Below are positions 9,104 to 25,740 of a stretch of 46,302 nt of DNA, one piece after another. The first letter of the stretch is position 1. Every line of letters begins with the position of its first letter. Source of the DNA: Rariglobus sp. (GTDB taxonomy: Bacteria > Verrucomicrobiota > Verrucomicrobiia > Opitutales > Opitutaceae). A program made the position numbers and the translations under genes. The stretch is from contig JAQSWS010000031.1 in NCBI GenBank assembly GCA_029266495.1, positions 1 to 46,302 on the forward strand, read 5' to 3'. Under the pieces are notes generated by a model. The model saw only the letters and a program-made list of their open reading frames with translations, did no database searches and was not told the origin of the DNA.

Positions 9104-9218
9104 CGAATGCCTAATGTCGAATGACGAATGAGATGAAACCATCAGCTATCCTACATTTTCGCAGTCATCACAGCGCAGTGCCGTTCATTCGTCATTCGTC
9201 ATTCGTCATTCGTCATTC
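9104..9218. repeat. GTCATTC tandem/inverted intergenic repeat
   Basis: Immediately after the second feoA stop comes TGACGAATG with GAATGACGAATGA; near feoB is a run of CATTCGT units (9185-9218, five GTCATTC-like repeats in opposite sense), so the two ends can pair around a 50-base loop. It sits inside the feo operon. Relatives are the CATTGGTCATTGG elements at 35607 and 44525. Confidence 0.85.
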
Positions 9219-9236
9219 CGGCTCCGCCGGCCGCGC

Positions 9237-11360
9237 ATGAATCCTTCGATCGTCAAACCCGCTCCCGTGCGCACGTCCGTCTACGCGCTTGTCGGCAACC
9301 CGAACTGCGGCAAATCCACGCTGTTCAACGCGCTCACCGGCCTGAAGCAGAAGGTGGGCAACTACCCCGGCGTCACCGTCGAGCGCAAAGTCGGCACCGC
9401 CTACACCCAGCACGGACATCCGCTCACGCTGATCGATCTGCCCGGCACCTACTCGCTCGCCGCGCGCTCCCCCGACGAAGCCGTCACCCGCGACGTGCTG
9501 CTCGGCCGCCGCGTCGATACCGCGATGCCCGACCGCATCGTGTGCGTGGTCGACGCCACCAACCTCGAGCGCAACCTCTACCTTGTTCACCAGATCCTCG
9601 ATCTCGGCCGGCCCGTGATCCTGGTGCTTAACATGATGGACGTCGCGGAGCAGGCGGGGCTCACCATCCGCACCGCCCGGCTCGAGCATGAACTCGGCAT
9701 TCCCGTGATCGCCTGCGCAGCCTCGAGCGGCCGCGGCCTCATCGACCTTAAACTTGCCCTCAGCCGCAACGACCTGCCCCTCCCGCGCCATGCCTGGGAC
9801 ATCCCCGTCGCGATCGCCCCCGCGGTCTCGGAGTTGCAGGCCTCGCTTCAGGACAACGACAAAAAGCCTCCGCTTATCGCCCGTGCCGAGGCGCTCCTTT
9901 TGCTGACCGACCAGGACAGCGTGCGCGTCGCCGGTTCGACCCCGCTCTCCGACCGCACGCGGGAAATCCTCGTCTCCTGGGAAAAACGCTGGGCGGCCGA
10001 CGGCACCGACTGGGCCGCCGCGCTGGTCAACGCCCGTTACGACAGCATCGGACGCCTGACCGCCGACATCGTCAGCACCGCGTCCACCGCCCCCGTGGGA
10101 CCGAGTCGCAGCGATCGAATCGACGCCTGGGTGACGCATCCCGTATGGGGCTGGTGCATCTTCGGCGTGCTCATGGCGGTGATGTTCCTGAGCATCTTCA
10201 CCCTTGCCGGCATTCCGATGGGCTGGATCGAAAGCCTCGTCGCCGTCGCCTCGGAATGGGTGTCCGGCCTGATTCCGCCCGGCGATTTGCACGACCTCAT
10301 CATCGACGGAGCCATCGCCGGCGTGGAGGGCGTGATTATTTTTCTTCCGCAGATTTTGATCCTGTTTCTCTTCATCGGCCTGCTTGAGAGCACCGGTTAT
10401 ATGGCCCGCGCGGCCTTCATCATGGATCGGCTGATGAGCAAGGTGGGCCTCAACGGTCGCAGCTTCATTCCGCTGCTCGGCTCCTACGCCTGCGCGATTC
10501 CGGGAATCATGGCGGCGCGCACCATCGAGCAGCCCAAAGACCGTCTTGTCACGATTCTGGTCGCGCCGTTCATGAGTTGTTCGGCGCGCCTTCCGGTTTA
10601 CCTTCTGCTGATCGCGGCGCTCGTGCCCGACGAACAGGTGCCCGTGGGTCTCAAGATCGGCATCATGCTGCTCATGTATGCGCTCGGCACGTTCGGTGCG
10701 TTTGGCTTCGCGTGGCTTTTCAAAAAGACGCTGCTGCGCGGCGCGCCGCCGCTGATGATCATGGAGCTGCCCCCTTACCGTCTGCCGCGCATGCGCGACG
10801 TGTTGCAGCAAATGACGGAGCGGGCGGGCCTTTTCGTGAAGCGCGCCGGCACGATCATCCTCGGGCTTTCCATCGTGCTCTGGTTTCTGGCCAACTACCC
10901 CAAGGTCCCCGAAAACCAGCCCGACACCGACCCGCTCGCCTACAGCATGGCGGGTCGTGCCGGCCATGCGCTTGAGCCGGTGATCGCTCCGCTCGGCTTC
11001 GACTGGCGCATCGGCATCGGCCTGATCCAATCCTTCGCGGCGCGCGAAGTATTCAACAGCTCGATGGGCGTGATCTTCGCGGTCGAGGAAACGGACGACG
11101 AGGAGGAAACCCGCGGCCACCTGCGCGATGCGTTGCGCGCGGCCGAGCGTCCGGATGGCACAAAGCTCTTCACGCCGTTGATCTGTCTCAACCTGATGGT
11201 GTTTTACGTCTTCGCGATGCAGTGCATCAGCACGATCGCGGTGGTGAAGCGCGAGACCAACTCCTGGCGCTGGCCGCTCTTCCAGCTCGGCTACATGACC
11301 GGCTTTGCATGGTTCATCTGTCTGGTGATCTACCAAGTGGGCCGCGCGCTGGGATATTGA
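9237..11360 (+). CDS. feoB: Ferrous iron transporter FeoB
   Basis: A 707-residue inner-membrane Fe(II) transporter. The N-terminal GTPase domain has G1 G-N-P-N-C-G-K-S-T (residues 20-28), the switch region N-Y-P-G-V-T-V-E, G3 D-L-P-G (67-70) and G4 N-M-M-D (132-135). A helical linker domain follows to about residue 280. The membrane part has two gate regions: G-S-Y-A-C-A-I-P-G-I-M-A-A-R with the conserved S-C-S-A-R-L-P-V-Y, and a C-terminal set with A-A-R-E-V-F-N. It is slightly shorter than the roughly 770-residue E. coli protein. It follows two feoA genes and precedes a small Cys-rich protein. The long frame on the opposite strand is a shadow. Confidence 0.97.
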   Translation: MNPSIVKPAPVRTSVYALVGNPNCGKSTLFNALTGLKQKVGNYPGVTVERKVGTAYTQHGHPLTLIDLPGTYSLAARSPDEAVTRDVLLGRRVDTAMPDRIVCVVDATNLERNLYLVHQILDLGRPVILVLNMMDVAEQAGLTIRTARLEHELGIPVIACAASSGRGLIDLKLALSRNDLPLPRHAWDIPVAIAPAVSELQASLQDNDKKPPLIARAEALLLLTDQDSVRVAGSTPLSDRTREILVSWEKRWAADGTDWAAALVNARYDSIGRLTADIVSTASTAPVGPSRSDRIDAWVTHPVWGWCIFGVLMAVMFLSIFTLAGIPMGWIESLVAVASEWVSGLIPPGDLHDLIIDGAIAGVEGVIIFLPQILILFLFIGLLESTGYMARAAFIMDRLMSKVGLNGRSFIPLLGSYACAIPGIMAARTIEQPKDRLVTILVAPFMSCSARLPVYLLLIAALVPDEQVPVGLKIGIMLLMYALGTFGAFGFAWLFKKTLLRGAPPLMIMELPPYRLPRMRDVLQQMTERAGLFVKRAGTIILGLSIVLWFLANYPKVPENQPDTDPLAYSMAGRAGHALEPVIAPLGFDWRIGIGLIQSFAAREVFNSSMGVIFAVEETDDEEETRGHLRDALRAAERPDGTKLFTPLICLNLMVFYVFAMQCISTIAVVKRETNSWRWPLFQLGYMTGFAWFICLVIYQVGRALGY

Positions 11361-11383
11361 GCGATTTGGGGTAGACTGAATCC

Positions 11384-11542
11384 ATGGACAACTGGCAAAC
11401 CCCGCTCGCACTCCTGGTGGTCACCGTCACCGTGGCATTGCTCGTTCGCAGCGTGTGGAAAAAACGCCGCAAGCCCGGCTCCGGCTGCGGCGGCGACTGC
11501 GGTTGCCCGACCACTGATCTCAAAGAGCGACTGAAGAAGTAG
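11384..11542 (+). CDS. FeoB-associated Cys-rich small membrane protein
   Basis: A 52-residue protein, ATG at 11384, starting 23 bases after feoB stops. It has one N-terminal membrane helix (TPLALLVVTVTVALLV), a basic stretch (K-K-R-R-K), then a cysteine cluster G-C-G-G-D-C-G-C-P and a charged tail. This is the layout of the FeoB-associated Cys-rich membrane protein family, found downstream of feoB in many bacteria and proposed to play a FeoC-like or iron-handling role. It is the last gene of the feo operon. Confidence 0.85.
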   Translation: MDNWQTPLALLVVTVTVALLVRSVWKKRRKPGSGCGGDCGCPTTDLKERLKK

Positions 11543-11675: not shown

Positions 11676-13067
11676 TCACCCCTGCTTCCCGCCGGCCACT
11701 TGCTGCGCAGGTTTTCCGCCAAGGCTCGCCGCGTAGTCCGACGGCGTCATGAACACCGCCTTCTGCTCCGTGAGGAAATCGATGATCTTCACAAACTCGT
11801 CGAACCGCGCACCCGCCCAATGGGTCGGGTGGCCTTGCAGCACGAAATACTCACGGTCCGGATTTTTCGCGTAGCCTTCCACGAACTTTCCGAAATCAGG
11901 GCTCCCCACCCTGCTCTCGAAATTCACCGCCCACACACGGTCCAGGATCGCTACCTTGCCCGCCGCCGCGAGTTTGCGGCCGCTCGCATCGATCGGCGAT
12001 GGATACAGCCACACTTTCATCGCCGGATCCCTTGCCATCACCTGTGCGGTCGCTTCGTCCTGGTGACTGCCGGAACCGCCTCCCGGAGGTCCGAACGTGG
12101 CGAACGCAAATCCCAGCTTCTCGACCGCAAGCTTCTGCGAACGCGCAAACCGGGCGGACTGCTCCTCGACCGTGCGCCCGCCAAACTCGCTCATTTTTTT
12201 CCCCGCCTCGTTCGTCCACACCCCGTGATCCCAGCCGTGAAACCAGAACTCGATCTCGCCGGCGACATGGCGGTCTTTGATCCATTGCACATAGGCTGGA
12301 GTGGCCTCTTCAAGGGTCTGCGTGATCACGCCGAAACTACCCTTGATTTTACGGCTCTTCAAAAACTCCGCGATCTTGATCCACGCACCAGGCACCTTGC
12401 CATCGATCTGACGCAGATCGTCGAGCTTGATGATGATCACCGGCGGCGCCTTGCGTTGCGACAACTCGGGCATCGCCGCCGCCACGGCCTGAACGGCAAC
12501 GTCCGGCTGCACTCCGATGATCGGCTGCGCACCGGCGGATAAACCCGTGACTTCAAAATCATCGAAATCCGCCGTGCCCGTCGCCGACCCCCAGGAATGA
12601 ATCCACACCGCCACCGTCACCGCGCCCTCTGGCACCGTCGCCTTCAGCGCGTAAGGCGTCCACTCGCCGGCTCCTTTCTTCACCCCCACGGAAGGCAGTC
12701 CGCCGGAATGTTTGAACACGTCATTTTTGACCGCCTTGCCCGCCGCATCGTGGAACCAAAAATACACTCCCAAAAAATCGCCCTGCGCCCGGGCGGAAAA
12801 CGTCAGCGTCAGCGCCTGCCCCGCCACGACCGGCAGTTTCGCGCTCGTGAGATCGGAGCCCTTTTTCACATCGGCATCGGTGATCCTTAAACCGGCTTTC
12901 CCCGTGTGCGCGGCTTCGGCCAGCACCTGCGACATCGTATCGCGCGTCACCCAGCCGGTCAGACCCTCCTCAAAACCGGCGTTCGGCAAAACCGAGGCGG
13001 CGATGGCGGCGGAAACCGTCGCGCAAAACAAGACAACGCTGCGAAACAAACGTATTAAACGGGGCAT
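11676..13067 (-). CDS. Secreted polysaccharide deacetylase-like protein with CBM-like domain
   Basis: A 463-residue protein with a signal peptide (about 1-23). Residues 25-175 resemble a family 4/9-type carbohydrate-binding beta-sandwich (L-P-N-A-G-F-E-E-G-L-T-G-W at the start, A-D-F-D-D-F-E-V at the end). Residues 205-445 look like a NodB-type deacetylase fold: I-I-I-K-L-D-D-L (Asp216, Asp217), H-G-W-D-H (His277, His281), and F-G-P-P-G-G. These would be the general base and metal ligands of a family 4 carbohydrate esterase, so removal of N- or O-acetyl groups from a glycan is inferred. Monocistronic, with a CTACATGTAG box 47 bases before the start. Confidence 0.75.
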   Translation of the reverse strand: MPRLIRLFRSVVLFCATVSAAIAASVLPNAGFEEGLTGWVTRDTMSQVLAEAAHTGKAGLRITDADVKKGSDLTSAKLPVVAGQALTLTFSARAQGDFLGVYFWFHDAAGKAVKNDVFKHSGGLPSVGVKKGAGEWTPYALKATVPEGAVTVAVWIHSWGSATGTADFDDFEVTGLSAGAQPIIGVQPDVAVQAVAAAMPELSQRKAPPVIIIKLDDLRQIDGKVPGAWIKIAEFLKSRKIKGSFGVITQTLEEATPAYVQWIKDRHVAGEIEFWFHGWDHGVWTNEAGKKMSEFGGRTVEEQSARFARSQKLAVEKLGFAFATFGPPGGGSGSHQDEATAQVMARDPAMKVWLYPSPIDASGRKLAAAGKVAILDRVWAVNFESRVGSPDFGKFVEGYAKNPDREYFVLQGHPTHWAGARFDEFVKIIDFLTEQKAVFMTPSDYAASLGGKPAQQVAGGKQG

Positions 13068-13114
13068 GCAGCGATTTTCATCACCCTCCCCGCATTGGCC
13101 AGACGGACGTCAGG

Positions 13115-13124
13115 CTACATGTAG
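13115..13124 (-). promoter_or_regulatory. CTACATGTAG palindrome, putative operator 1
   Basis: A perfect 10-base palindrome 47 bases before the deacetylase-like gene. Read on the minus strand it is preceded by GGGATT. It is one of four such boxes before minus-strand transcription units in the 13-18.5 kb region. Confidence 0.55.
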
Positions 13125-13229
13125 AATCCCACGCGCGCACCACGACCCCATCCTCGGCCGGCACGCGCACGGACCGCATCGTCGAAGAGTTCCTCCGGCG
13201 CCGGCGCGTTCGATTGCTTCTCCCCGTCC

Positions 13230-14837
13230 TCAACCGCGCCGGCGGCGAAAACCGGCCGCAAGCACCAGGCCCGCCGCTCCCGCGAGCATCGCATAGGCGG
13301 AAGGCTCGGGGATGGCGGAAGCGATCGCCGTGAGCGTGCCTGCCCCCTCGCTGAAGGTGAGCGTGTAGCCACCCGAGTTCAGCGTCCAGTTGCCCGAACC
13401 CGCGTCGATAAACGTGCCGCTGATGCTGGTTCCGGTCGCGGTGACGCCGCCAAAATGCCCGGTTTCGGCGGTGGAGACCAACACGGTGTAGGACGTCAGC
13501 AACGTCGTTGCCGCACCAAAATCAAAGGCAAGGTTCGCGTTGGTGAACACCGCCTCGGCCGCCTTGATCTGGCCGGCGGAAGTCGCACCCACGCCGAGGG
13601 TGGTCGTCGTTGCGGTGCTGAAGGCATAGGTCGCCCGCGCCTGTGAGTCGAAGGTCGCGCCGGCCCCGACCGTGAGCACCGAGTTGGCGCTGATGGCCCC
13701 GGACGCACCGAGCGCCAGCGTGCCGCCCGTCACCTGTGTCGCACCCGTGTAGGTGTTCGTCCCGTTGAGCGTCAGCGTATGGCCGCCCGCCTTGGTCAGC
13801 GCGATCTTCGCCGTGGCGCCGTCCTGGATGATGCCGCCGAAGGTGGAATCGGCCGGAGCCGCCGCCCCGTCCGGATTGATCGTCAATGTGGCCGTGCCGG
13901 TGCCGGTGCTGCCGTTGGTGACCGTGTTAAAGGCCAGCCGGGAGCCCGTCGTGGACAGGCCCGCCGCCGTCACGTTGTAACTGCCGGCGCCGTTGCCCAG
14001 ATTGAGAGAGGCCGTGCCGGAAGTTCCACTGGCCGAAAGGATCACCGTGGTGGATGCGGACAGGGCGTTGTCGCTGGCCGCCCGCACGACTGCGGCGATA
14101 TTGCTGCCTCCGATCAGCGTGTTGCCCGAGTATGTGTTTGTTCCGCTCAACGTCAGCACCGCCGCGCTGGTTGCCCGGACGTCCGTCACATTGGAACCGA
14201 TGTTTCCCGAGACCACCATGCCCGCCGCGTTGAAACCCGCCGCGGTCAGCGTGCCCGTGTGATTCAGATTGCCCGATACCGTGAAGGCACGGTTGCCATT
14301 CTGGGTGAGGGTGAGATTGCCCGTTCCACTCACGTTGCCACTGATCGAGAAAAACGAACCGCTGAGCGTCGTGTCGGCCGTCCAGGTCTGGCTGGCCTGC
14401 AGGACGATGTTCGAGCTGATGGTGACCGCGGCCCGGTCATTGGTCGCGGTCACCGTGCGGACCGTCGTGATGCCACCCGAGCCGATTTCAAGGATTCCGC
14501 CGCTCATGGTAATCGCGCCCTTGTTCTGGAACGTGATACCCTGCGCCGCCTGCGTCCCGCTCACAGTCACCGTGTAGGCGCCTGTGCCGGTATTCGGACC
14601 CGCCGAAAAATACAGGGCGTCGGTGGATGTGGTCGCGGCCGTGAACGAGCCGGCCGCCGCCCCCGTCGCGTCGCTGTTCCAAAAATTGTCCGAACCCCAC
14701 GTGCCCGACGGCACGGCTCCGGCGCCGGCCGTGGTGCCGTCGGCGTCCCAATACAACGAGGTCGCATCAAGGCGAACCACGGAAAACACCGCCAGCAGGG
14801 CGGCCGGGGCAACTGCGCGTAACAATGAGGTATTCAT
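13230..14837 (-). CDS. Autotransporter-associated beta-strand repeat protein with PEP-CTERM
   Basis: A 535-residue secreted protein. The start at 14837 gives MNTSLLRAVAPAALLAVFSV, a clear signal peptide; an upstream in-frame start at 14885 is less likely. Repeats of the form L-T-L-S-G-T-N-T-Y-S-G-N-T and L-T-L-N-G-T-N-T-Y-T-G-A-T-Q-V-T-G-G-T-L are passenger-associated transport repeats, which build a beta-helix. There is no autotransporter barrel; instead the protein ends A-I-P-E-P-S-A-Y-A-M-L-A, a hydrophobic helix and R-R-R-R, the exosortase sorting signal. Likely a surface or matrix protein. A CTACCTGTAG box lies 80 bases upstream. Confidence 0.9.
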   Translation of the reverse strand: MNTSLLRAVAPAALLAVFSVVRLDATSLYWDADGTTAGAGAVPSGTWGSDNFWNSDATGAAAGSFTAATTSTDALYFSAGPNTGTGAYTVTVSGTQAAQGITFQNKGAITMSGGILEIGSGGITTVRTVTATNDRAAVTISSNIVLQASQTWTADTTLSGSFFSISGNVSGTGNLTLTQNGNRAFTVSGNLNHTGTLTAAGFNAAGMVVSGNIGSNVTDVRATSAAVLTLSGTNTYSGNTLIGGSNIAAVVRAASDNALSASTTVILSASGTSGTASLNLGNGAGSYNVTAAGLSTTGSRLAFNTVTNGSTGTGTATLTINPDGAAAPADSTFGGIIQDGATAKIALTKAGGHTLTLNGTNTYTGATQVTGGTLALGASGAISANSVLTVGAGATFDSQARATYAFSTATTTTLGVGATSAGQIKAAEAVFTNANLAFDFGAATTLLTSYTVLVSTAETGHFGGVTATGTSISGTFIDAGSGNWTLNSGGYTLTFSEGAGTLTAIASAIPEPSAYAMLAGAAGLVLAAGFRRRRG

Positions 14838-14917
14838 GGGGGTATAAGCGATGGGCTGAATGTGAAACTGGCCGCACCCTTGCACGCTTCCACCTCGCTG
14901 CCAAAACCCCCGCCATA

Positions 14918-14927
14918 CTACCTGTAG
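14918..14927 (-). promoter_or_regulatory. CTACCTGTAG box, putative operator 2
   Basis: Lies between the dehydrogenase stop and the beta-strand-repeat gene, 80 bases before its start. It is the core of a 26-base sequence (14915-14940) repeated without mismatch at 18425-18450 (operator 4). Confidence 0.55.
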
Positions 14928-14948
14928 CGCATCAACCCGCCGCGACCT

Positions 14949-15998
14949 TCAGGTCATGCGGTCGAATGCCTCGAGCGTCACCTCGCCGCTCAACGGTTCT
15001 CCCGCCAGGTAGCGACGCAGGTTCTCCACCGCATGGCCACCGCAGAGGGGATAGGTCTCCAGCGTGGGCCCGGCGATGTGCGGCGACAGCATGACGCCCG
15101 GCGCCGTGCGCAGCGGATAATCCGCCGGCAGCGGCTCGCGGTGGAACACGTCGAGCCCGATGCGCAGCCGTCCCGTCGCGGCCTCGGCCAGCAACGCGGC
15201 TTCGTCCACGATCTGCCCCCGGCCGACGTTCACAAAGACGGAGTCGTCGGCCAGCCGGCCGAGGATGCGCGCGTCAACGGAGCCGCGATTTTCCGCCGTG
15301 AGACTTTCGCAGCAGATCAAAACTTCGCTCGCGCCATACAACTCCTCCAGGCTCGCGCACGGCTCCACGCCCCGGTCCGCCATGAACGCCGGCGGCACGC
15401 CGTGTGAATACGAGCGGATGCACGCCGGCTTGAAGGGCGCGAGCATCGTCGCGATTTCGCGCGCAATGGCCCCGAAGCCGTGCAACCCCACGCTCCGGCC
15501 GCGCAGCGCCTTCGTGCGCAACCGCCGCACCTGGTCGACCGTCCAGCCGCCCTTTTCCATCGCACCGGGCCAGCCGCCGGCCCCGCGCAGCAGCGCCAGC
15601 GTCAGCAGCACCGCGTGCTCGGCGATCGTATGGTTGATCGAACAACCCCAGTTCGTCGCCCGCACGCCGCGCAGGAACGGCTCGCGCGTCAGCAGCGACT
15701 TCAACGAACCGGTCACGTGGCACACGTATTTAAGGGAAAACTCCGGCGACGCCACCCAGTCCGGCGGAAGGCGTTTCGCACTCCACGCCGTCACGATGAC
15801 CGTCGGACGCCATTCGCGCAGAATACGCTCCCAGCCCGCGGTTCCGGCGGCATCCGTGTCGATATACGCATGCGGATGCTCCGCGAACTCCTCCATCCGC
15901 AAACCGGGAAGAAAAAGGGCCTGCTCCTTGGGCGTGAAGGCGAAAAGAATGCGCTCCGTCGCAACGGGGGGCGGACAGGTTTCGGCGGGCGGCTTCAT
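14949..15998 (-). CDS. D-isomer-specific 2-hydroxyacid dehydrogenase
   Basis: An NAD(P)-dependent cytoplasmic oxidoreductase of 349 residues that interconverts a 2-hydroxyacid and a 2-oxoacid. The cofactor loop is V-G-L-H-G-F-G-A-I-A-R-E-I-A (about 170-183); the catalytic set is Arg260 in N-V-G-R-G-Q, Glu288 in F-H-R-E-P and His307 in S-P-H-I-A-G. The N-terminal A-T-N-W-G segment and the H-x(7)-T region fit the family. It overlaps the stop of the pectate-lyase-like gene by four bases (ATGA), so the two are translated from one message, and it may process an acid released from the glycan. The natural substrate is unknown. Confidence 0.88.
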   Translation of the reverse strand: MKPPAETCPPPVATERILFAFTPKEQALFLPGLRMEEFAEHPHAYIDTDAAGTAGWERILREWRPTVIVTAWSAKRLPPDWVASPEFSLKYVCHVTGSLKSLLTREPFLRGVRATNWGCSINHTIAEHAVLLTLALLRGAGGWPGAMEKGGWTVDQVRRLRTKALRGRSVGLHGFGAIAREIATMLAPFKPACIRSYSHGVPPAFMADRGVEPCASLEELYGASEVLICCESLTAENRGSVDARILGRLADDSVFVNVGRGQIVDEAALLAEAATGRLRIGLDVFHREPLPADYPLRTAPGVMLSPHIAGPTLETYPLCGGHAVENLRRYLAGEPLSGEVTLEAFDRMT

Positions 15999-17623
15999 GG
16001 CTTTGCGGCAAGACGCCGTTTGAGTTGATCGAAATACAGCGAGCGCGGCACGAGGCCTTCGCCGCGGCCCTCACCCTCGACGAAGTCGCTGGAATCCACC
16101 TTCGCCGCCGGCCCGCTCGTGCCGATCACGTAGCCGTCGCCGAACTGGTGCGAATACACCAGCACCGGCCGCTCCAGCGAATAACGCAGGCCCTTTGTAT
16201 TCCAAAAAACCGACTGCGTGGTCGTCACGCCATGCATCGGGTTCCCGCCCCACGGACGCAGCGCGCGCGCCTCGATAAAGTCGCCCTCGCACGTGAGATT
16301 GTCCACGAGGTTGGCCAGCGAAAGAAACATGTGGAAGTCCGAGCCGAGCTTTCCATCCCTCGCGAGGCAGTCCACGATCACGTTGCCGCTAGCCGACATC
16401 GTGCCGAAGTCGTAGTTGTGCCGCGCACCTTCAACGCGGCAGTCACGGATGAGGTTGTCCTGGGCGTTGATCACGAACCCGTAGCCGTTGCCGCCGCCGC
16501 CGCGATACTGGGGAAACTTGAAATCACAGTCCGCCACGGTGACGAGCCGCGTGCGCCAGAGTTTGAGCACGTTGGAAAGCACATGCACCTTCGGGTCGTT
16601 GCCCGCGGGCGCGTAGGTGTGCACGCGGCGCACCCAGCAGTTCTCGGCAAACGACAGCGCGATGGCCGCGGAACCATGCGCACCCTGGCCCACCGTTCCC
16701 GGCTTCGACCAGTCCTCCTCGGCGAGGCCTTCACCCGGATGCTGCCTCATGCCGATGGAAAAATCCTCCAGCCCCGCCTCGCTGATCATGCGGCCGGAAA
16801 CTTTCAGGACCTGCGCGTTGTCCGCCGTGTGGAGAAATCCGCGCAGCGGGATGTCCACCGTGACAACGTTGTCGATCGCATCGATCGCGGTGATGCGGCG
16901 GCAGTAGGCGAGCGTCCGATTCTGCGACTGCCCAGGCGTCCATTTGCCGTTCATGCCGACGAGGTCGATGAAGTGCTGCGTGAGGTCGTTGCGCACCACG
17001 ACCAGGTCGCCGACCGCGAACTCCGCCACGTCGTTGAGCGGGATGCGCTGCGCGGGCTGCGGCAGGTCCTCGCGGAGCTTCACGCCGTCGGCCGCCTTGC
17101 CGTCGGCGTTCCACGACACCGCGCCGCGCGGCTTGAGTTCGATCACATTTTTGCCGGCCATTGCGGTCGCATCATTAAAGAGAAACGTCCTCCCCGCGCC
17201 CGCGCCGCGCAGCACCACGCCGTCGCCGCGCACGGCCAGCGCCGCCTTCGCTCCGTCGGGCGGAACGACGCGGTAGGTGCCGGCCGGCAGGAACACCACC
17301 CCGCCGCCTGCGTCTGCTGCCGCATCGAGCGCGCGCTGGATCGCCGCCGTGGCATCGAGTTTACCCGAAGCATCGGCCGCATAGGGTGCTCGAGTGACGT
17401 CAATCAGGTTGTCCGCGCGATCCGGAACCGGCGCCTCGCCCCGACGATAACCGGCGTGGGAAAAATCGTGCAAAAACCGCCCGGATGCATCCGCGCGTCC
17501 CGGGCGCCAGTCTTCGGGATACAGGGAGGATCGCCAGGACCCGGCGGAGAGCCGGCCTGCCGCCAGAAGGACGGCGCACATCGGGACAGCCAGCCGGAGG
17601 AAACGACAGAAGCCTGGGGACAT
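15995..17623 (-). CDS. Secreted right-handed beta-helix protein, pectate lyase superfamily
   Basis: A 542-residue protein. The ATG at 17623 is used because it opens a signal peptide (M-S-P-G-F-C-R-F-L, hydrophobic core, L-S-A-G); a GTG at 17632 adds three residues. From about residue 80 the pectate-lyase-3 pattern is clear: D-A-T-A-A-I-Q-R-A-L-D-A-A, G-G-G-V-V-F-L-P-A-G-T-Y-R-V, then R-G-D-G-V-V-L-R-G. A run of short beta-strand turns (N-C-W-V-R-R-V-H-T; N-L-I-R-D-C-R-V-E-G) continues to residue 460. Such proteins cleave or bind polysaccharides; no specific catalytic residues can be assigned. First gene of an operon with the dehydrogenase, with a CTACCTGTAG box 60 bases upstream. Confidence 0.85.
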   Translation of the reverse strand: MSPGFCRFLRLAVPMCAVLLAAGRLSAGSWRSSLYPEDWRPGRADASGRFLHDFSHAGYRRGEAPVPDRADNLIDVTRAPYAADASGKLDATAAIQRALDAAADAGGGVVFLPAGTYRVVPPDGAKAALAVRGDGVVLRGAGAGRTFLFNDATAMAGKNVIELKPRGAVSWNADGKAADGVKLREDLPQPAQRIPLNDVAEFAVGDLVVVRNDLTQHFIDLVGMNGKWTPGQSQNRTLAYCRRITAIDAIDNVVTVDIPLRGFLHTADNAQVLKVSGRMISEAGLEDFSIGMRQHPGEGLAEEDWSKPGTVGQGAHGSAAIALSFAENCWVRRVHTYAPAGNDPKVHVLSNVLKLWRTRLVTVADCDFKFPQYRGGGGNGYGFVINAQDNLIRDCRVEGARHNYDFGTMSASGNVIVDCLARDGKLGSDFHMFLSLANLVDNLTCEGDFIEARALRPWGGNPMHGVTTTQSVFWNTKGLRYSLERPVLVYSHQFGDGYVIGTSGPAAKVDSSDFVEGEGRGEGLVPRSLYFDQLKRRLAAKP

Positions 17624-17683
17624 GACGCACACGTTAGCCGCCGGTCCGCACCACCGTAAATCCGGCAGGCGAGTTGATTAATC

Positions 17684-17693
17684 CTACCTGTAG
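17684..17693 (-). promoter_or_regulatory. CTACCTGTAG box, putative operator 3
   Basis: Lies 60 bases before the beta-helix protein gene. On the minus strand it reads GGGTTCTACAGGTAGGATTA, closely like operator 1 (GGGATTCTACATGTAG). Confidence 0.55.
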
Positions 17694-17734
17694 AACCCGG
17701 AATGCCCGGCCGCGGATCCGCTCAACACTCGCGA

Positions 17735-18379
17735 TCACTGCGCGTAGGGATCACGATTGAATGCCTTCGCGGCATCGGTGATCCCCAGGCCCTCCAGATG
17801 CCCATCCGCGAAAAGATAATTGGCCCGGCCGCGGTGCCGGTCGGGATCCGAGGTCAGCAAGTCTCCGGTCGGGTCTCCAATCCAGACCGAGAGCACATGC
17901 GATTGGGAATCACCCGCCAGGATCGTCCTGGACGGCTGACCGACGGTCGCACGCGGAGTCTGGAAGTAATAGTTGAATTTCCCGTTCATGCCGGTCAGCC
18001 CGTCCGGACAAATGGCGAAGGGATTTCCTTCGATGCCTCCGATGGTCTTGATGTCGACCCCGATGTAGGGCTTCAACTCGAGCCACCAGTGGGCCTTGTT
18101 GGGATTCACCCGGCCATTGAGCTGACTCGTATTGTAGGTGACCGCCGGATAATAACCGCGATAGTCCGCCGCGAACTGGTTGAATGCCCCTCCGATTGAG
18201 CGAAGGTTCGACGCACATTTCGCCATGCGTGCGTTGGCCCTCATGGGCCCGAGGGTGGCCAGAATCAACGCGGCCAGCACACCGACGATCGCAACAACCG
18301 CCAGCAGCTCGATCAGCGTAAAGCCACGGGACGACTTCGCGGAAAAAAGGACGGGGATCACCCTGGGGCGGGGGTTCAT
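17735..18379 (-). CDS. Type II secretion-like pseudopilin (H-X9-DG type)
   Basis: A 214-residue protein with a class III prepilin leader: G-F-T-L-I-E-L-L-A-V-V-A-I-V-G-V-L-A-A-L around residue 20, where a prepilin peptidase would cut before Phe. The C-terminal part carries C-A-S-N-L-R-S-I-G-G-A and H-R-G-R-A-N-Y-L-F-A-D-G-H, the H-X9-DG signature common in planctomycetes and verrucomicrobia. No other secretion-system gene is near, as is usual for this group; a role in a surface fibre or in sugar uptake is speculative. Two ATGs (18388, 18379) are possible. A CTACCTGTAG box lies 48 bases upstream. Confidence 0.9.
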   Translation of the reverse strand: MNPRPRVIPVLFSAKSSRGFTLIELLAVVAIVGVLAALILATLGPMRANARMAKCASNLRSIGGAFNQFAADYRGYYPAVTYNTSQLNGRVNPNKAHWWLELKPYIGVDIKTIGGIEGNPFAICPDGLTGMNGKFNYYFQTPRATVGQPSRTILAGDSQSHVLSVWIGDPTGDLLTSDPDRHRGRANYLFADGHLEGLGITDAAKAFNRDPYAQ

Positions 18380-18427
18380 GCCGCCCATATTCGCCGGTAT
18401 CCTTCGTCCGGCAACGCAACCGTGATA

Positions 18428-18437
18428 CTACCTGTAG
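18428..18437 (-). promoter_or_regulatory. CTACCTGTAG box, putative operator 4
   Basis: Sits between the end of the LacI gene and the pseudopilin gene. The surrounding 26 bases (18425-18450) are identical to 14915-14940 and run into the last codons and stop of the LacI gene. Confidence 0.55.
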
Positions 18438-18441
18438 CGCA

Positions 18442-19473
18442 TCAACCCGCAACCGCCGCCCTTTGACGGCGCAAGGTCTTGCCGGGGACCCACACGCCAT
18501 CCACCAGCAGGTGCATGGGCATGTCCGGAACCCCGCGCTCCCCCCGATGCAGCATGTCCACCAGGACATCCACCGCCTTGCGGCCGATGTGCAGGCTGCT
18601 CTGGCTGATGCCCGACACCTCCGGCGAGGTGCTCGGCACGCTGAGGTTGGCGAAGCCCAGGTCGCGCGGCATTTTAACTCCGAGGTCCAGCAGTTGCTCG
18701 TAAAACTGGCGGTGGGAGACAACCGCGTCGGGCTTCTCCGCCTTGAGCCACGCCCGCACGTCCTCGCGGCCGAAAAGACGCACGGGCAGGATTTCCATGC
18801 CCGAGGTGATCAGCTCCTTCGCCGTGAGCACCCCGCCAAACCAGCCGTGCCCGACCTTTTCGCTCCAGCTCTTGTGCACGGCGAGTGCGATCCGGCGATA
18901 TCCCAATTCGTCGAGGTGCCGCATCATCAGCAGCATCGAGCGAAAGTGGTGGTTCGTCACCACATGCAGCCCGGGCCGTTTTAAACTGTAGCTCAGCGAG
19001 ATCGCCGAAAAATCACTGCAATCGAAGTCGATCTCCGTGTGCGGCTCGGGCTGGGGCGCAAAGATCAGCCCCTGGATATTGCGGGCCTTCAGTATCCTCC
19101 CGAGCTTCGGAAAGGAGAGGTCCTTCCCCTGCATCCAGAATTCCTCCACCCCGTAGCCAAGTTCGGCCGCGCGGGCCTTCAACCCGTCGTGGTAATCGCG
19201 AAAATCGTCGTTACTGCGCAAAAAACCGCGGTCGGGCCAGTTGTTGATCCATGCGAGCGTGGCCTGGTAGTGGGGACGCCGCCGCGTCTGCCGGTAGGCG
19301 TTGAGCGCCGAGAGCATCGGATCGGGCGCATAACCCATTTTTGTCGCCAGTTTTTGAATACTCTTTCGCGTCGTCTCGCTGAGGCGCGGACTGTTGCGCA
19401 GGGCCAGCGCCACCGTGGTGAAGTGCACGCCGGCCTTCGCGGCGATGTCCCGTATGGTGACTCGGTTGCTCAT
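18442..19473 (-). CDS. LacI-family transcriptional regulator
   Basis: A 343-residue regulator: HTH V-T-I-R-D-I-A-A-K-A-G-V-H-F-T-T-V-A-L-A at residues 5-24, hinge G-Y-A-P-D-P-M-L-S-A-L, then a periplasmic-binding-protein-like sensor to the end. Note H-F-T-T-V in the recognition helix where S-x-x-T-V is usual. It is a paralogue of the regulator at 2475. It lies between the GH38 gene and the pseudopilin gene and directly upstream of operator 4, so it is the first candidate for the protein that binds the CTACCTGTAG boxes. This link is inference from position. No such box precedes the regulator gene itself. Confidence 0.92.
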   Translation of the reverse strand: MSNRVTIRDIAAKAGVHFTTVALALRNSPRLSETTRKSIQKLATKMGYAPDPMLSALNAYRQTRRRPHYQATLAWINNWPDRGFLRSNDDFRDYHDGLKARAAELGYGVEEFWMQGKDLSFPKLGRILKARNIQGLIFAPQPEPHTEIDFDCSDFSAISLSYSLKRPGLHVVTNHHFRSMLLMMRHLDELGYRRIALAVHKSWSEKVGHGWFGGVLTAKELITSGMEILPVRLFGREDVRAWLKAEKPDAVVSHRQFYEQLLDLGVKMPRDLGFANLSVPSTSPEVSGISQSSLHIGRKAVDVLVDMLHRGERGVPDMPMHLLVDGVWVPGKTLRRQRAAVAG

Positions 19474-19531: not shown

Positions 19532-22500
19532 TCAGCGCGTGAACTTCACCGACCTCACCTGATAGGGCGTGACCGCCAGCGCGACTTCGCCGTCCGCCGC
19601 CTTCGTGCCGTCCAGCGGCTGATTGAGCAGATCGACCGGCCTGCCTTTTGCACCCGAAGCCAGCGTCATCTTCAGCGACCCGCGACGTCCGAGCGTCTCG
19701 TGCAGGCGCAACACCCAGCCGCCTTCGACCGGCTCGGCCCATGCGGGCACCGCCGAGCTCACGCCTTCGATCCGTTCCAGTCCTGCCGACACCTGCTCGC
19801 CCGCATACGGCACGCAGGGTGTGAACAACGTGTCCGCCAGCGCCGCCGGCTGCTCGTGCACCGGCAGGTCCGGCGCATAACGCGTGAGCGCCAGGTCGAT
19901 CGTATGCCGGCCCAGATCAGAATGCACCGGGCGGTTTGGCGTCGGCCGGATCTTCGGATGATCCCCCGCCTCCGTGACCAGCGCACTGCGCAACAGGCTC
20001 ACCCCCACCGTGCCGTCGCGGGTGGTGAAGCCGTATTTCGCCTCGGTGATGATCGCGAGCCCTTCGCTCTGCGCGTCGTCGGACACCGCCATCCAGCGGC
20101 TGCCCGGCACTTCCCACTGCGCCTCTTCGCGCGGATAACCCGACCACTGCCCGCGCAACACGCTGCCAAAGGGAGCGCCGTAGCGCGCCTTCCGTCCGCG
20201 GTAGTCGCTGCAAAAAATACCTTTCAGCCAGTGCAGCGGATCCTGCCAGTCCACCTCGTAACGCACCCGCAGCGCATTCTCTCCGGCACGCAACGTATAG
20301 ATCACCGTCACGCGGCTCTTCTTCACGATCTCGTAAGCGAACGCCACCGAAGCGACGAGTCCGTCGTTCGTCACGACCGGCTTGCCCGTGATCCGCGCAT
20401 CGTGGCCGCTTACCATGTTGGCGCGGTCCACATCCCACGCGTCGAACGCTGCCGGCTGGTCGGGGTAGGCGCACAACTTGTGCGCGATGACGGCCACTTC
20501 ACTGCCATCAACGGTGAGCCCCGTCAGCGAACCGCCGGCGTCGAACGTCGCCCGCACGCGTTCGCTTTCGAGCGAGGTCGCGGTGGCCTTCGGTGCCGTG
20601 GTTTTTTTGACGGAGAGCGCCGGCGCCGGTCCGCCGCCGAGCGGAGGCAGTTGATAACACACGCCGCCGTCGATCCAGGTGCGCGCCAACGGAAGCGGGT
20701 TGAACCAGCCTTTGTTTTTTCCGCCGCCCAGCACTCGATCGGCCTCGGCCAGCGCTTTTGCGGCAAGCCCCTGCAACTCCGGAATCGCCTCCGCATACAC
20801 CTCCCAAATGGAACTGCCGGGGATGTAGTCATGAAAATGCGAGAAGCTCGCGCGCTTCCAATAGTGCCGGTCGATCGGTCCGAGTCCGCGCACGACATGC
20901 GCCGCCTCCAGGATTTGCAACGCCCGCTCCAAGGCGCGAAACGCCGATTTCAACGTGCAGTGCGTGGTGAACACCCCGCGGTGCAGTTCCAGCATGAGCT
21001 CGCCCGTCACCACGGGAAGTTCGGCCTTCACTTCGGCAAGGCGGTCGAAGAACGGCTCGATGTTGCCCCACTCCACGCGCGGCATGCCGGCTAGGTTGGA
21101 CACGCGACGCGCACGCTCGAGCATCTCCTCGGTAGGTCCGCCGCCGCCATCGCCGTAACCGGTCGGCTGGAGGAACTCCGGGTGCACCGCCGACTGCTGA
21201 TGATGGAACACGTCCTCACGGAGACGCTTCACATCGACCCACTCGTTGTAGTCATGAATCAATACGACATGCGCGTTGATTTCCGCGCCGTCCGGGCCCT
21301 GCCAGCGGAAGCTGGAATGCGGGAACCGGTTCACCGTGCTCCACGAAAGCTTGCTGGTGAAGAACCCCTTCACCCCCACGCCGGCCAGCAGTTGCGGCAT
21401 GCAGCCGCTGTAGCCGAACACGTCGGGCAGCCAGAACACGTCGCTGGGCGAACCGCGCAGCGCCTTGAACTCCTCCTGACCGATGCGCAGGCAGCGCAGG
21501 ATCGCCTCGCCGCAGGGCATCTGGGTGTCGCCCTCAACGTAGGCCGCGCCGATTGCGTCCCATTTCTTTTCGGCGATGAGTCCCTTCACCTTTTGCAGCA
21601 GCTCGGGCGAATGTTTGCCCACCGCCTCGTAGCTGGCGGGCTGTGAGTAGCCGAATTTGAACTCGGGATATTCCTTCAGCAGGCGCGTCTGCGTCGACCA
21701 GGAATGCATCGCCTTGAACTCGCCCACGCGCTCCGACCAGAGCCACACCAGATCGATGTGCGCATGTCCGGTGAGCACGGCCTTGATCGCATCCGGCGAG
21801 GCGGGAAACTCGGCGTAAACTTTCTTGAGCTCCTTCGCGAAAGGGGCGATCCCCTCCCGGTCATACACGTCGATCGCGCGGTCCAGCCGGTCGCACAGGC
21901 GGCGGAACAGCGGACTCGCGCGGAACGCCGGCATGCTATGGCGGACCGGATCCGTGAACGGCTTGGGCAGGCCGGAAACCGCCGGCTGGTATTCGCGATA
22001 CTCGGCTTCAAGCAGCTCAAGCAGCACCTTCAAATCATGATAAACGGTCCACGCGGTGTCGTCGCGCGCCATAAAAACCGGCGGCAGATACAGGCTGCCC
22101 TCCTGCTCCAGCCGCGCAGCTTCACCCGCCAGCCAGATGCCCGAGCGAATGCAGACCGATTCAATCCATACTTCGCGCACGCCGGCCGGCAATGGGATCT
22201 GCTGGTGCGCGATGTCCAGGCCGGAATACGGCACGCCATCGATGTAAGCGGTCGCCTCGGCCTGGTCCTCCCAGCGCAGGTAGCGCGTTTCACTCACCGT
22301 CGCCTCGGGCAGCGTCAGGCGGAACCAGCTCTGCGCATATTTCGGCCCCCAGTGAAACGGCGTCTCCGGCACCGGCTTGAAATCGGTCCCCGCGATTTCC
22401 TTCACGGTGCGGAAGACGAGCGTCGGCGCCGTCTGCTCGACGCGGATGTCCCCGGGGAGCGGACGCCAGATGCGGCCTTGGGCGCGGCGCATGGCCTCGG

Positions 22501-22546
22501 CGACACGGGCGGGAATAAGCTGGGTGAGAAACGTGCGGGGAAGCAT
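19532..22546 (-). CDS. Alpha-mannosidase, glycoside hydrolase family 38
   Basis: A 1004-residue retaining, zinc-dependent exo-alpha-mannosidase without a signal peptide, so it acts in the cytoplasm on imported mannosides. An N-terminal beta-sandwich-like region (about 30-180) precedes the catalytic domain: G-H-A-H-I-D-L-V-W-L-W with zinc ligands His263 and Asp265, and W-L-P-D-V-F-G-Y-S-G with the nucleophile Asp375. The helical mid-domain and large C-terminal beta domain (660-1004) complete the GH38 architecture; length is normal for bacterial members. Followed 58 bases later by the LacI gene and preceded by a strong inverted repeat and a GntR gene, so it is probably controlled by one of these. 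Confidence 0.95.
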   Translation of the reverse strand: MLPRTFLTQLIPARVAEAMRRAQGRIWRPLPGDIRVEQTAPTLVFRTVKEIAGTDFKPVPETPFHWGPKYAQSWFRLTLPEATVSETRYLRWEDQAEATAYIDGVPYSGLDIAHQQIPLPAGVREVWIESVCIRSGIWLAGEAARLEQEGSLYLPPVFMARDDTAWTVYHDLKVLLELLEAEYREYQPAVSGLPKPFTDPVRHSMPAFRASPLFRRLCDRLDRAIDVYDREGIAPFAKELKKVYAEFPASPDAIKAVLTGHAHIDLVWLWSERVGEFKAMHSWSTQTRLLKEYPEFKFGYSQPASYEAVGKHSPELLQKVKGLIAEKKWDAIGAAYVEGDTQMPCGEAILRCLRIGQEEFKALRGSPSDVFWLPDVFGYSGCMPQLLAGVGVKGFFTSKLSWSTVNRFPHSSFRWQGPDGAEINAHVVLIHDYNEWVDVKRLREDVFHHQQSAVHPEFLQPTGYGDGGGGPTEEMLERARRVSNLAGMPRVEWGNIEPFFDRLAEVKAELPVVTGELMLELHRGVFTTHCTLKSAFRALERALQILEAAHVVRGLGPIDRHYWKRASFSHFHDYIPGSSIWEVYAEAIPELQGLAAKALAEADRVLGGGKNKGWFNPLPLARTWIDGGVCYQLPPLGGGPAPALSVKKTTAPKATATSLESERVRATFDAGGSLTGLTVDGSEVAVIAHKLCAYPDQPAAFDAWDVDRANMVSGHDARITGKPVVTNDGLVASVAFAYEIVKKSRVTVIYTLRAGENALRVRYEVDWQDPLHWLKGIFCSDYRGRKARYGAPFGSVLRGQWSGYPREEAQWEVPGSRWMAVSDDAQSEGLAIITEAKYGFTTRDGTVGVSLLRSALVTEAGDHPKIRPTPNRPVHSDLGRHTIDLALTRYAPDLPVHEQPAALADTLFTPCVPYAGEQVSAGLERIEGVSSAVPAWAEPVEGGWVLRLHETLGRRGSLKMTLASGAKGRPVDLLNQPLDGTKAADGEVALAVTPYQVRSVKFTR

Positions 22547-22605: not shown

Positions 22606-23664
22606 TCATTTGGGGGCCGGTCCGGTGGACTCGCCGATAAACAGCGGCGCCTCCCTGGGTTGCTCCAGCGAAGGAACCGGCCAGCCGGCCTTGCCCGTCA
22701 TCCAGTTCACGGCCTTGCGCAGGTAACGGGCGCGCGGCGGGGTTTGCAGGGAGGTGAGCGAGGGCACGAGATAGGGTCCGAGACCCTCGTCGTTGACCGC
22801 GCACACCGACACATCGCGACCGATACGCCGGCCCGCCTCATGCAGCGCCCGCATCGCGCCGATCGCCGCGTGCACGGTGGTGCCATACAGCGCCGGAGCA
22901 ACGGGTTTTCCGCTCTTGAGCCGGGACGCCATCCACTTGTAGGCGGAGCCGAGGGAACCGTCCGCGGGCCTGGCCAGCAGTTCCCCGGCGAGCCCGTGCC
23001 GTTCGATGAACGCGCGCCAGCCGGCGATGCGCGCCTCGATCACGGAATTGCTCGCATGGACGTTGAGGCAATCGATGCGCCGGTGTCCGAGCGCCTGCAG
23101 GTGGGTGAGGAGCTTGTCGCCCGACGAGAAGGGGAACACGATGACCGAACGCAACCCGGCCGCGCTTTCATCCCGGTCCAGCACGACGACGCGCGCCCGG
23201 CCCGAGGTCATGCGCCGCACCAGCGTGGACGGGAGTTTTTCATCAGTCAGCTGCAAGAGGAACACGCCATCGAACCCCTCCAGCGCCGCACTGATGGCGG
23301 CATCGCCGTAATGCGCATAACCCAGCGAACGCACCACCGCGCCGCATTCCTCGGCAGCGGTATAGACTCCGTCGCGCCAGAGCGCGCTTTCACCCGCGAT
23401 CTGTCCCGGATGAAGAAAAGCGATCAACGGAGCGCGCTTCCCGGAGGCGGCGGCCGCCACGGTCAGCCGTCCGGTGGGACCGCGTGCGAGCAGCCCTTCG
23501 TCCGCGAGCTGCCGGACGGCCTTGCGGACGGTGGGGCGGCTCAAGCCGAGCTCGATCGCCAGCTGACGTTCGCCGGGCAGAGGAGATGCCGGGTGGTCGC
23601 CATGCTGGAGCCGCTTGCGAATCATCTCCACAGCGAGTCGGGTCTGGGTGTCGGGACGGGCCAT
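22606..23664 (-). CDS. GntR/LacI-hybrid transcriptional regulator
   Basis: A 352-residue regulator. Residues 5-72 are a GntR winged helix (L-P-G-E-R-Q-L-A-I-E-L-G-L-S-R-P-T-V-R-K-A-V-R-Q-L, A-R-G-P-T-G wing), and residues 78-345 are a LacI-type periplasmic-binding sensor (L-G-H-R-R-I-D-C-L-N-V, V-S-V-C-A-V-N-D-E-G). This combination is that of AraR-type sugar repressors. The GH38 gene starts 59 bases after its stop and the inverted repeat between them is a natural target. The 205 bases upstream, up to the next gene, hold nothing recognised. Confidence 0.88.
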   Translation of the reverse strand: MARPDTQTRLAVEMIRKRLQHGDHPASPLPGERQLAIELGLSRPTVRKAVRQLADEGLLARGPTGRLTVAAAASGKRAPLIAFLHPGQIAGESALWRDGVYTAAEECGAVVRSLGYAHYGDAAISAALEGFDGVFLLQLTDEKLPSTLVRRMTSGRARVVVLDRDESAAGLRSVIVFPFSSGDKLLTHLQALGHRRIDCLNVHASNSVIEARIAGWRAFIERHGLAGELLARPADGSLGSAYKWMASRLKSGKPVAPALYGTTVHAAIGAMRALHEAGRRIGRDVSVCAVNDEGLGPYLVPSLTSLQTPPRARYLRKAVNWMTGKAGWPVPSLEQPREAPLFIGESTGPAPK

Positions 23665-24522: not shown

Positions 24523-25740
24523 TCAGGCGGAGTGCGCGGCGGAGGGGTCGGTGGCGATATCCGCCGCCAGGAGGATGTCCAGATTCGGCAGCCCGGCGCG
24601 AAAGGCATCGTCGATCCGCTCACGTCCGCCACAGGTCGCGCGCACCAGCATCTGCGGCCGCGGAAGCGAGGTGGATTGATCCTGTTCGCCGCGCGCCAGG
24701 GCGAGTGCGCTCTTCAGCAGCCAGTGTCCGATGTAATCGAAGTTCTGGCGGATCGTGCTGAGCGGCGGATCGCTGTATTCGCTGGCCTCGGTGTCATTGT
24801 AACCGACGATCTGGAAATCCCCCGGCGCACTGAGGCCGATCTTGTGCATCGCGGTCATGAAACGCAGCGCGTGCTCATCGTCGTAGCTGATCACCGCGAG
24901 GTCTCCGCGGTAGGTCTTCCAACGCTCCGCGAGCTGGTCCATCGCCTGCGCGCCCGGACGCACAAGACCGCAGAAGTTCGGCAGGTTTTCACGCGAGGTG
25001 TAGCACGCGTAGGCACTGAGTTCTTTTTGCAGCACGACATCGTTCGCCGAGTCAGGCCCCAGCAGGGCGATGCGACGATGCCCGAGGGCATGAAAATATC
25101 CGCACAACGCCTCCGTCGCCACCTGCAGGCTGTTGCCGAAAATCTCCTGTTGCTCGAAGCTGTTTTTCTCCAGGCCCGGGATCACCATCGGCAGGCTGAC
25201 CGGCAGCGGGCACATGCGCACGAAGGTGCGCACCTCGTCCACCCGGTCATGCGGAAACCACGGCAACGTCAGCGCGACGCAGCCTTCCTGCTCGAGGAGC
25301 CTGGCCTGGGTCAGCCCGTCCTCGCAGAAATCCCGCACCCAGCTTGACCGAAGTTCGGCCTGCTGCTCCAGACCGGCATGGGCGACGGCCTGCAACACCC
25401 GATAGGCATACGCACTGCCACCTTGGTAGACGAGCATGCCCACGCGCTTCATGGACCGGCGCGTTGAGCCGTTACCATCCACATGCCGGGCCACAAACGT
25501 TCCGCTGCCGATCCGGCGCACGACGCTGCCGTCACCCACCAGTTCCTTCAGTGCACGGCGCACCGTCAGAAAATTACACCCATACGTGAGCGCGAGGCTG
25601 CGCTCGGCAGGCAGGCGCGCCCCCAAGGGCAGCGTGCGCGCCAGTTGGCGGATTTCGGCTTCTACTTGCTTATGCTTAAATTGAGGGGGCTTCACGGAAA
25701 ACGCTTTAGGGGGAAGACAACCAGACTGCGGCAAGAACAA
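24523..25740 (-). CDS. GntR/LacI-hybrid transcriptional regulator
   Basis: A 405-residue regulator with a GntR winged helix (L-P-A-E-R-S-L-A-L-T-Y-G-C-N-F-L-T-V-R-R-A-L-K-E-L, then I-G-S-G-T-F-V-A wing) and a LacI-type sensor with L-G-H-R-R-I-A-L-L-G and I-V-G-Y-N-D-T-E-A-S-E-Y. A GTG start at 25695 (V-K-P-P-Q-F-K-H-K) would fit the domain better than the ATG at 25740. It is divergent from the pseudopilin and the hydrolase cluster across an AT-rich gap, so regulation of that cluster is plausible. Not closely similar to the other GntR in the window. Confidence 0.85.
   Translation of the reverse strand: MFLPQSGCLPPKAFSVKPPQFKHKQVEAEIRQLARTLPLGARLPAERSLALTYGCNFLTVRRALKELVGDGSVVRRIGSGTFVARHVDGNGSTRRSMKRVGMLVYQGGSAYAYRVLQAVAHAGLEQQAELRSSWVRDFCEDGLTQARLLEQEGCVALTLPWFPHDRVDEVRTFVRMCPLPVSLPMVIPGLEKNSFEQQEIFGNSLQVATEALCGYFHALGHRRIALLGPDSANDVVLQKELSAYACYTSRENLPNFCGLVRPGAQAMDQLAERWKTYRGDLAVISYDDEHALRFMTAMHKIGLSAPGDFQIVGYNDTEASEYSDPPLSTIRQNFDYIGHWLLKSALALARGEQDQSTSLPRPQMLVRATCGGRERIDDAFRAGLPNLDILLAADIATDPSAAHSA

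Follow-up and report, generated by a model that had tools for sequence, protein, structure and literature searches.

This analysis concerns a 46,302-nucleotide contig of Rariglobus sp. (GenBank assembly GCA_029266495.1, contig JAQSWS010000031.1; Verrucomicrobiota, Opitutaceae), analysed over its whole length and called the window hereafter (contig C144 of a 4.89-Mb genome), and in particular a short palindromic box that stands there four times close to the gene of a LacI-family regulator. The locus is an apparent run of minus-strand genes encoding a GH38 alpha-mannosidase, the LacI protein, a pseudopilin, a beta-helix protein with a dehydrogenase, a PATR/PEP-CTERM-like protein and a deacetylase-like protein, and each of the last four units is preceded by a box (Table 1). 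An earlier note, drawn from the same DNA, had placed the boxes at 13115, 14918, 17684 and 18428, at distances of 47, 80, 60 and 48 bases from the start codons (ATG 13067, 14837, 17623 and 18379), and all these values proved exact. Its statement that other upstream regions of the window lack the box holds as well, as CTACMTGTAG occurs nowhere else in it (0 further copies; mean 0.00 in 100 dinucleotide shuffles). The single orientation on which it also relied is there, all four being listed on the minus strand, but is uninformative because the box is nearly palindromic. Gene calls came from a simple script that scores codon usage and had the window as its training set, so some start codons may be wrong.

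Table 1. Boxes, genes and putative promoters of the locus (window coordinates)
Feature	Position	Strand	Remarks
Operator box 1, CTACATGTAG	13115..13124	-	Upstream of DUF2334/deacetylase-like gene
Operator box 2, CTACCTGTAG (coding strand CTACAGGTAG)	14918..14927	-	Upstream of PATR/PEP-CTERM-like gene
Operator box 3, CTACCTGTAG (coding strand CTACAGGTAG)	17684..17693	-	Upstream of beta-helix/dehydrogenase operon
Operator box 4, CTACCTGTAG (coding strand CTACAGGTAG)	18428..18437	-	Upstream of pseudopilin gene
LacI-family regulator	18442..19473	-	Recognition helix HFTTVALALR; proposed reader of the box
Pseudopilin (N_methyl, DUF1559, H-X9-DG)	17735..18379	-	Target; Pfam
Pectate-lyase-like beta-helix protein	15995..17623	-	Target; Pfam
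D-2-hydroxyacid dehydrogenase	14949..15998	-	Second gene of the beta-helix operon; Pfam
PATR beta-strand-repeat protein, PEP-CTERM-like tail (by eye)	13230..14837	-	Target
DUF2334/polysaccharide-deacetylase-like protein	11676..13067	-	Target; E 3.2e-5, 24.1 bits, below the Pfam cut-off of 26
GH38 alpha-mannosidase	19532..22546	-	Directly upstream of lacI
Putative pseudopilin promoter	18387..18414	-	-35 TTGCCG (18414-18409), -10 GAATAT (18392-18387), 7 nt before ATG 18379
Putative deacetylase-like promoter	13074..13101	-	-35 TGGCCA (13101-13096), -10 GAAAAT (13079-13074), 6 nt before ATG 13067
Putative beta-helix operon promoter	17631..17660	-	-35 TTTACG (17660-17655), -10 TAACGT (17636-17631), 7 nt before ATG 17623
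Putative PATR/PEP-CTERM-like promoter	14876..14904	-	-35 TTGGCA (14904-14899), -10 AAGGGT (14881-14876)

The regulator carries the LacI helix-turn-helix (PF00356, 40.7 bits against a cut-off of 27) and a C-terminal sensor domain of the periplasmic-binding-protein type (Peripla_BP_3, 39.6 bits, cut-off 26.5); by NCBIfam TIGR01481 it is no CcpA (20.6 bits, cut-off 442.35). The PEP-CTERM label of the gene at 13230-14885 rests on inspection of the C-terminus by eye; a search at E 0.001 found this motif neither with Pfam nor with NCBIfam. For the deacetylase-like protein, the counterpart in relative G117 (L040:13204-14664) matches both CBM_4_9 and DUF2334 above cut-off.

The core of the box is CTACNNGTAG and its extended form TTCTACNNGTAGAA, an even palindrome as expected of a LacI/GalR operator. 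Beyond the 10-bp core, whose length was fixed by the selection of boxes itself, weaker positions extend it to about 14-16 bp, where operators of this family should span 16-22 bp. The centre reads AG, AT, AC, GG, GT or AA, and the central CG of most even LacI motifs is absent. In the whole genome, CTACNNGTAG occurs 8 times and the same word reversed 161 times, a rarity to which the TAG and the rare codon CTA within the word are expected to contribute. Four of the eight sites lie in the window, two inside genes and two at C53:103057/103094, 37 bp apart and upstream of a deacetylase-like gene that is 37% identical to that of the window; six of the eight are thus upstream of genes of the kinds that make up the locus. 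If eight sites were placed at random, finding four within these 5.3 kb would have P = 1e-10, for a region that was picked post hoc. Between species, conserved islands surround the boxes, and box 4 sits inside a 21-nt block that is invariant across three species. That the boxes are mobile repeats, structural RNA or chance is barely conceivable: REP-like palindromes do exist in this genome, but the box has just the 8 copies, its flanks are unlike REP-like ones, and a 4-bp stem with a 2-nt loop is in our judgement unlikely to fold. The conserved islands, the placement of the copies near lacI and their fixed spacing (both described below) also speak against it.

The box follows the LacI orthologue. 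Besides the own genome (G000), we considered the relatives G041 and G117 (same genus), G035, G005 and G053, whose orthologues are 83%, 75%, 54%, 53 and 52% (a pair in G005) and 54% identical, respectively. Exact boxes accompany the orthologue in five genomes (own 4, G041 6, G117 4, G035 4, G005 2; hereafter the five main genomes), and all 20 are intergenic and upstream of genes, so the box is not as common inside genes as before them. The CTACNNGTAG sites beside the orthologue make up 6 of 11 in G041, 4 of 7 in G117, 4 of 11 in G035 and 2 of 8 in G005. At the G053 locus (Geminisphaera colitermitum TAV2, L165) exact boxes are absent, and lacI is flanked on both sides by the variant TTCTAACTGTAGAA. 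The claim that orthologous loci carry the motif thus stands for four relatives and for more distant loci (see below), with variants alone in G053. Eight other LacI loci, 43-51% identical (L044-L048, L050-L052), lack the exact box; the G005 member of this set nevertheless has a pseudopilin gene with a box 15 kb away (L097). Within the genus, 3 of 13 genomes have a LacI orthologue (E <= 1e-80) and box clusters occur in the same three, while one of the remaining ten (G156) has a pair of CTACTAGTAG words. The regulon had been proposed to be local, which fits the four boxes clustered beside lacI but is incomplete, since genes outside the main locus are preceded by boxes too: the C53 deacetylase-like paralogue of the own genome, a sugar transporter gene of G117 and a pseudopilin gene of G005. 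On contig C16 of G035 (L091), three CTACGTGTAG words stand exactly 100 bp apart, at 1715, 1815 and 1915, with identical flanks; they probably form a tandem repeat and have nothing to do with the operator.

Proximity does not single out the LacI protein, as two GntR-type regulators with a LacI-like sensor domain (22606-23664 and 24523-25740) are encoded within 13 kb of the boxes, and the orthologue of the former stands beside GH38 in the boxed G035 locus. However, in G117 this orthologue sits on a different contig, in G005 it is distant from the boxes, and G097, G150 and G053 possess it but have no CTACNNGTAG clusters, whereas the boxes co-vary with the LacI recognition helix. We therefore regard a GntR reader as highly improbable.

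This covariation was seen in a wider set, the best 80 of 104 LacI relatives, in which the HFTTV class is defined by a recognition helix matching HFTTV[ASG][LM][AC]L. An intergenic exact box was present at 8 of 17 HFTTV loci and at 0 of 63 loci with other helices (6 of 14 and 0 of 63 after removal of three records already seen). Among the new cases are Opitutia UBA4506, Spartobacteria LR76 and two strains of Cerasicoccus. At UBA4506 and both Cerasicoccus loci, the box stands before genes of the kinds seen in the window, encoding N_methyl pseudopilins, DUF2334 or CBM proteins (Pfam, some below cut-off) and beta-helix proteins, the last named by eye and without a matching Pfam family. A 14-bp motif trained on 24 boxes from five genomes also detects intergenic variants such as CTAACTGTAG and CTAATTGTAG. 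At 13 bits it is found at 11 of the 14 new HFTTV loci versus 6 of 63 others, at 11 bits at 11 versus 9, and at 9 bits at 13 versus 21. Within 400 bp of lacI, the 9-bit counts are 7 of 14 and 8 of 63, compared with means of 1.0 (largest 5) and 3.7 for permuted motifs. The own genome encodes a second HFTTV LacI (C7, L127), around which three intergenic TTCAACGTGTAGAA copies are found, at 13346, 14452 and 16420; one precedes a pseudopilin gene, and another separates lacI from a Gfo/Idh-type gene. The orthologue pattern and the helix pattern together support the earlier proposal that the protein at 18442-19473 is the likely regulator of the box. At L206, L216, L200, L232 and L240, where the helices read HVTTV or SKMTV, CTAACTGTAG-like or TTTTACCNGTACAA words occur 55-155 bp before the lacI match.

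A second regularity is the distance between the box and promoter-like elements. When all 31 intergenic exact boxes were read in both directions, the unselected version of the test, TTG stood at +23 (13 bp after the box end, 18 bp from the operator centre) in 20 of 62 readings, with 4 at the second-best offset and a mean of 1.1 per offset. For 32 variant boxes of the HFTTV loci, none of them in the training set, TTG was at +23 in 12 and at +33 in 5 of 64 readings, ranking first and second among 58 offsets (mean 1.3). Read towards their genes, boxes have TTG at +23 in 12 of 21 cases in the five main genomes and in 7 of 11 in other lineages, with a perfect TTGACA at this place twice (UBA4506 and one Cerasicoccus). 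A hexamer nAnnnT follows 16-18 nt beyond the TTG in 14 of 19 cases, versus 0-6 at 13 control shifts. The operator is hence found upstream of the putative -35 element on a preferred helix face, as is asked of a LacI-family activator. Another candidate, in which the box itself belongs to a -10 element (TAGTAT after the box), was rejected, as TAGNNT is limited to some boxes whereas TTG at +23 is common across lineages.

We then defined a full fit as a -35 of the form TT.... or T.G..., an nAnnnT hexamer and a start codon 4-10 nt after the latter. Among 35 chosen box directions (omitting the upstream C53 box, most directions towards lacI and most weaker motif hits), 13 fit at +23 and 3 at +33, with leaders of 6-8 nt, while 1260 random anchors gave 2 and 6 fits, respectively. 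The fits at +33 are the beta-helix genes of three genomes (own, G041 and G035), where a conserved TTTACG lies ten bases further from the box than the -35 at other genes; the same three boxes also fit at +34, and offsets +22 and +76 gave one fit apiece. Boxes read the other way fit twice at +18, twice at +23, once at +38 and once at +66. One box between divergent G005 genes was listed in both directions and fits in both. Three of the four window boxes have the full arrangement (18428 and 13115 at +23, 17684 at +33). Box 14918 has both hexamers and a longer leader, its start codon following 38 nt after the -10. The even box-to-start distances highlighted in the earlier note are accordingly real and explained by this fixed geometry.

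Starting from the box, its link with the regulator and its fixed spacing to TTG, all of which can be read from the sequence itself, a mechanism may be proposed. As the box tracks the LacI orthologues and the HFTTV helix and not GntR, it is very probably the operator of this LacI protein and its Verrucomicrobiota clade, which would act as an activator at the target genes. There, a LacI dimer would occupy a constant position ahead of a weak sigma-70-type promoter, its operator centred 18 bp before the first -35 base and about -53.5 from the putative transcription start. At the beta-helix genes, the centre would lie 28 bp before the -35, at about -63.5 and one helical turn further; since ten bases are approximately one turn of DNA, the operator would keep its helix face. 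Most likely, LacI would recruit RNA polymerase when its sensor domain is in the right ligand state, with a glycan-derived sugar as the presumed signal. The predicted targets form a recurring module of pseudopilin, deacetylase-like, beta-helix and PEP-CTERM or beta-strand-repeat surface proteins, which in some relatives would also include a sugar transporter or a Gfo/Idh enzyme. Many of the target mRNAs may be leaderless.

Critically speaking, several points weigh against this interpretation. LacI-family proteins are most often repressors. The exact box is absent at 9 of the 17 HFTTV loci, and the 9-bit motif matches at the 21 non-HFTTV loci given above. Neither the own lacI nor GH38 has a recognizable box in front of it. 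In the gene-oriented set, 9 of 21 target boxes lack TTG at +23 (three of the nine fit at +33), the full fit fails in 19 of 35 directions, and two +23 fits run opposite to the listed direction; these lists (21 + 11 boxes and 35 directions) were compiled manually. In the high-GC genomes, both promoter hexamers (-35 and -10) are weak, and a scan of 12900-18700 with the sigma-70 consensus returned no promoter. The species compared are related by descent, L173 and L174 being nearly identical, so that p-values overstate independence. Finally, an upstream cre, the operator of CcpA, also goes with repression at the lev operon (PMC3463425).

The same LacI-operator pair might work as a classical repressor, beside or over the RNA polymerase site and released by sugar. 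The family is known mainly for local control of sugar genes (PMC4052901), and some boxes stand where a repressor would bind, namely just before lacI genes (9 bp at L042 9360, 12 and 12 bp at L173/L174 9970, and 5 bp at L127 14452, a TTCAACGTGTAGAA copy ahead of its own lacI ATG). Overall, boxes towards HFTTV lacI genes lie 5, 9, 12, 12, 25, 50 and 89 bp before the ATG, the distance at L198 being counted to the third ATG as chosen by the gene caller. Read in this direction, they lack the TTG element at +23 (6 of 6 in the list compiled by hand). Being near the ATG and devoid of this element, they fit autorepression, and the sequences suggest that lacI represses itself in several relatives. At the target genes, on the other hand, the operators are situated wholly upstream of the putative -35, in two positions ten bases apart as for activating cre boxes, and the -35 and -10 elements are weak, which we count against a repressor. 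We consider repression at the targets unlikely. Activation, rather than the repression usual for LacI, is the likely mode of action, as suggested by an operator upstream of the polymerase like that of activating cre boxes; the earlier note had left this sign open.

Several known systems resemble the proposed one in part. CcpA of Bacillus subtilis is likewise a LacI-family protein with an operator upstream of the -35 (ackA, pta, ilvB), and activation goes with a cre in this position in a manner that depends on the helix face (PMC3463425). CcpA is global, however, and reads the CG-centred WTGNNARCGNWWWCAW (PMC3463425), whereas the regulon described here would be small and mostly local, with a variable centre, and unlike for CcpA the same spacing recurs with several other palindromes (see below). 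Local LacI sugar regulons (Ravcheev et al. 2014; PMC4052901) share the even palindrome and the few operons near the regulator gene, and most of their sites likewise precede the start codon by 30-140 bp. Most have a central CG, here replaced by AG, AT, AC, GG and others: according to that paper, 1173 of 1251 even LacI motifs contain the central CG, next to 49 different and 29 degenerate centres. The string 'Verrucomicrob' is absent from its main text. Cra/FruR of Escherichia coli, which represses glycolytic and activates gluconeogenic genes (PMC4052901), is a LacI-family dual regulator as well, albeit a global one. Among open-licence PMC papers, no paper on the present regulon was found (for LacI in Opitutaceae, judged by title among the matches listed).

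The genome encodes many further LacI proteins (52 PF00356 matches, 49 above the Pfam cut-off), and around some of them other palindromes are repeated. CTGAACNNGTTCAG occurs four times around two nearby LacI paralogues (L154, on C154; at 819, 6818, 10634 and 11753), CGTTACNNGTAACG twice near LacI at L131, and TTACNNGTAA three times at L124, one copy falling within the called end of a gene. At all three loci, two copies have TTG 18 bp from the centre towards a gene. The repeated palindromes of L133 and L148 lack a TTG at +18 towards the gene. Inverted repeats at L136 and L159 were rejected as operators because they share the flanks TAGGGC...GCCTT and are thus REP-like. Several of the inspected LacI genes adjoin pseudopilin, PATR/PEP-CTERM-like and glycan genes.

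We also scanned palindrome centres with the CTAC boxes excluded and REP-like elements still included. In the LacI neighbourhoods of the own genome, TTG at centre +18 is the top offset for 6-bp halves (10 versus a mean of 1.45), and the excess recurs for other half lengths (4 bp, 14 vs 5.97; 5 bp, 12 vs 2.43; 7 bp, 7 vs 0.69). Nine of the ten 6-bp hits lie ahead of a same-direction gene start and one is without such a gene on its contig; some hits (e.g., L142 and L150) may be due to chance. The signal is weaker or absent in the other genomes (4 bp, 26 vs 24.95; 5 bp, 20 vs 10.74, second to another offset; 6 bp, 10 vs 3.79; 7 bp, 3 vs 1.71). Twenty random G041 segments gave 2 vs 0.79 for 6-bp halves, not significant with only 22 palindromes (4 bp, 6 vs 4.74; 5 bp, 2 vs 1.83; 7 bp, 0 vs 0.28), a small control that is compatible with a ratio like that of the other genomes. 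Palindromes of the form 4+2+4 are paired within the same neighbourhood more often than after permutation of the 49 LacI genes in 43 groups (29 vs 11.1; 21 vs 10.0 without the window group), a result inflated by REP-like repeats.

These few loci suggest that the same layout of box and promoter recurs around some related regulators in the phylum. Whether many LacI proteins of Opitutaceae and related Verrucomicrobiota are parallel activators, each with its own palindrome centred 18 bp, or one helical turn more, ahead of the -35 and its own, partly leaderless module of pseudopilin, PEP-CTERM and glycan-enzyme genes, we judge to be evenly balanced. If so, nature would supply many cases in which a recognition helix can be matched to its operator. 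If the spacing is common to the paralogues, as part of the data suggests, regulator targets could be found from sequence, which would also offer a route to study how LacI recognition helices choose their DNA. In some Verrucomicrobiota, LacI regulators number in the dozens, and pseudopilin and PEP-CTERM-like genes, largely of obscure role, are numerous as well; our result links one LacI clade with a defined operator and with a gene module that recurs, and it predicts activation.

A long minus-strand open reading frame (9213-11411) without a Pfam match has a lower coding score than a plus-strand gene of 707 amino acids at 9237-11360, whose product is FeoB-like (name by eye).

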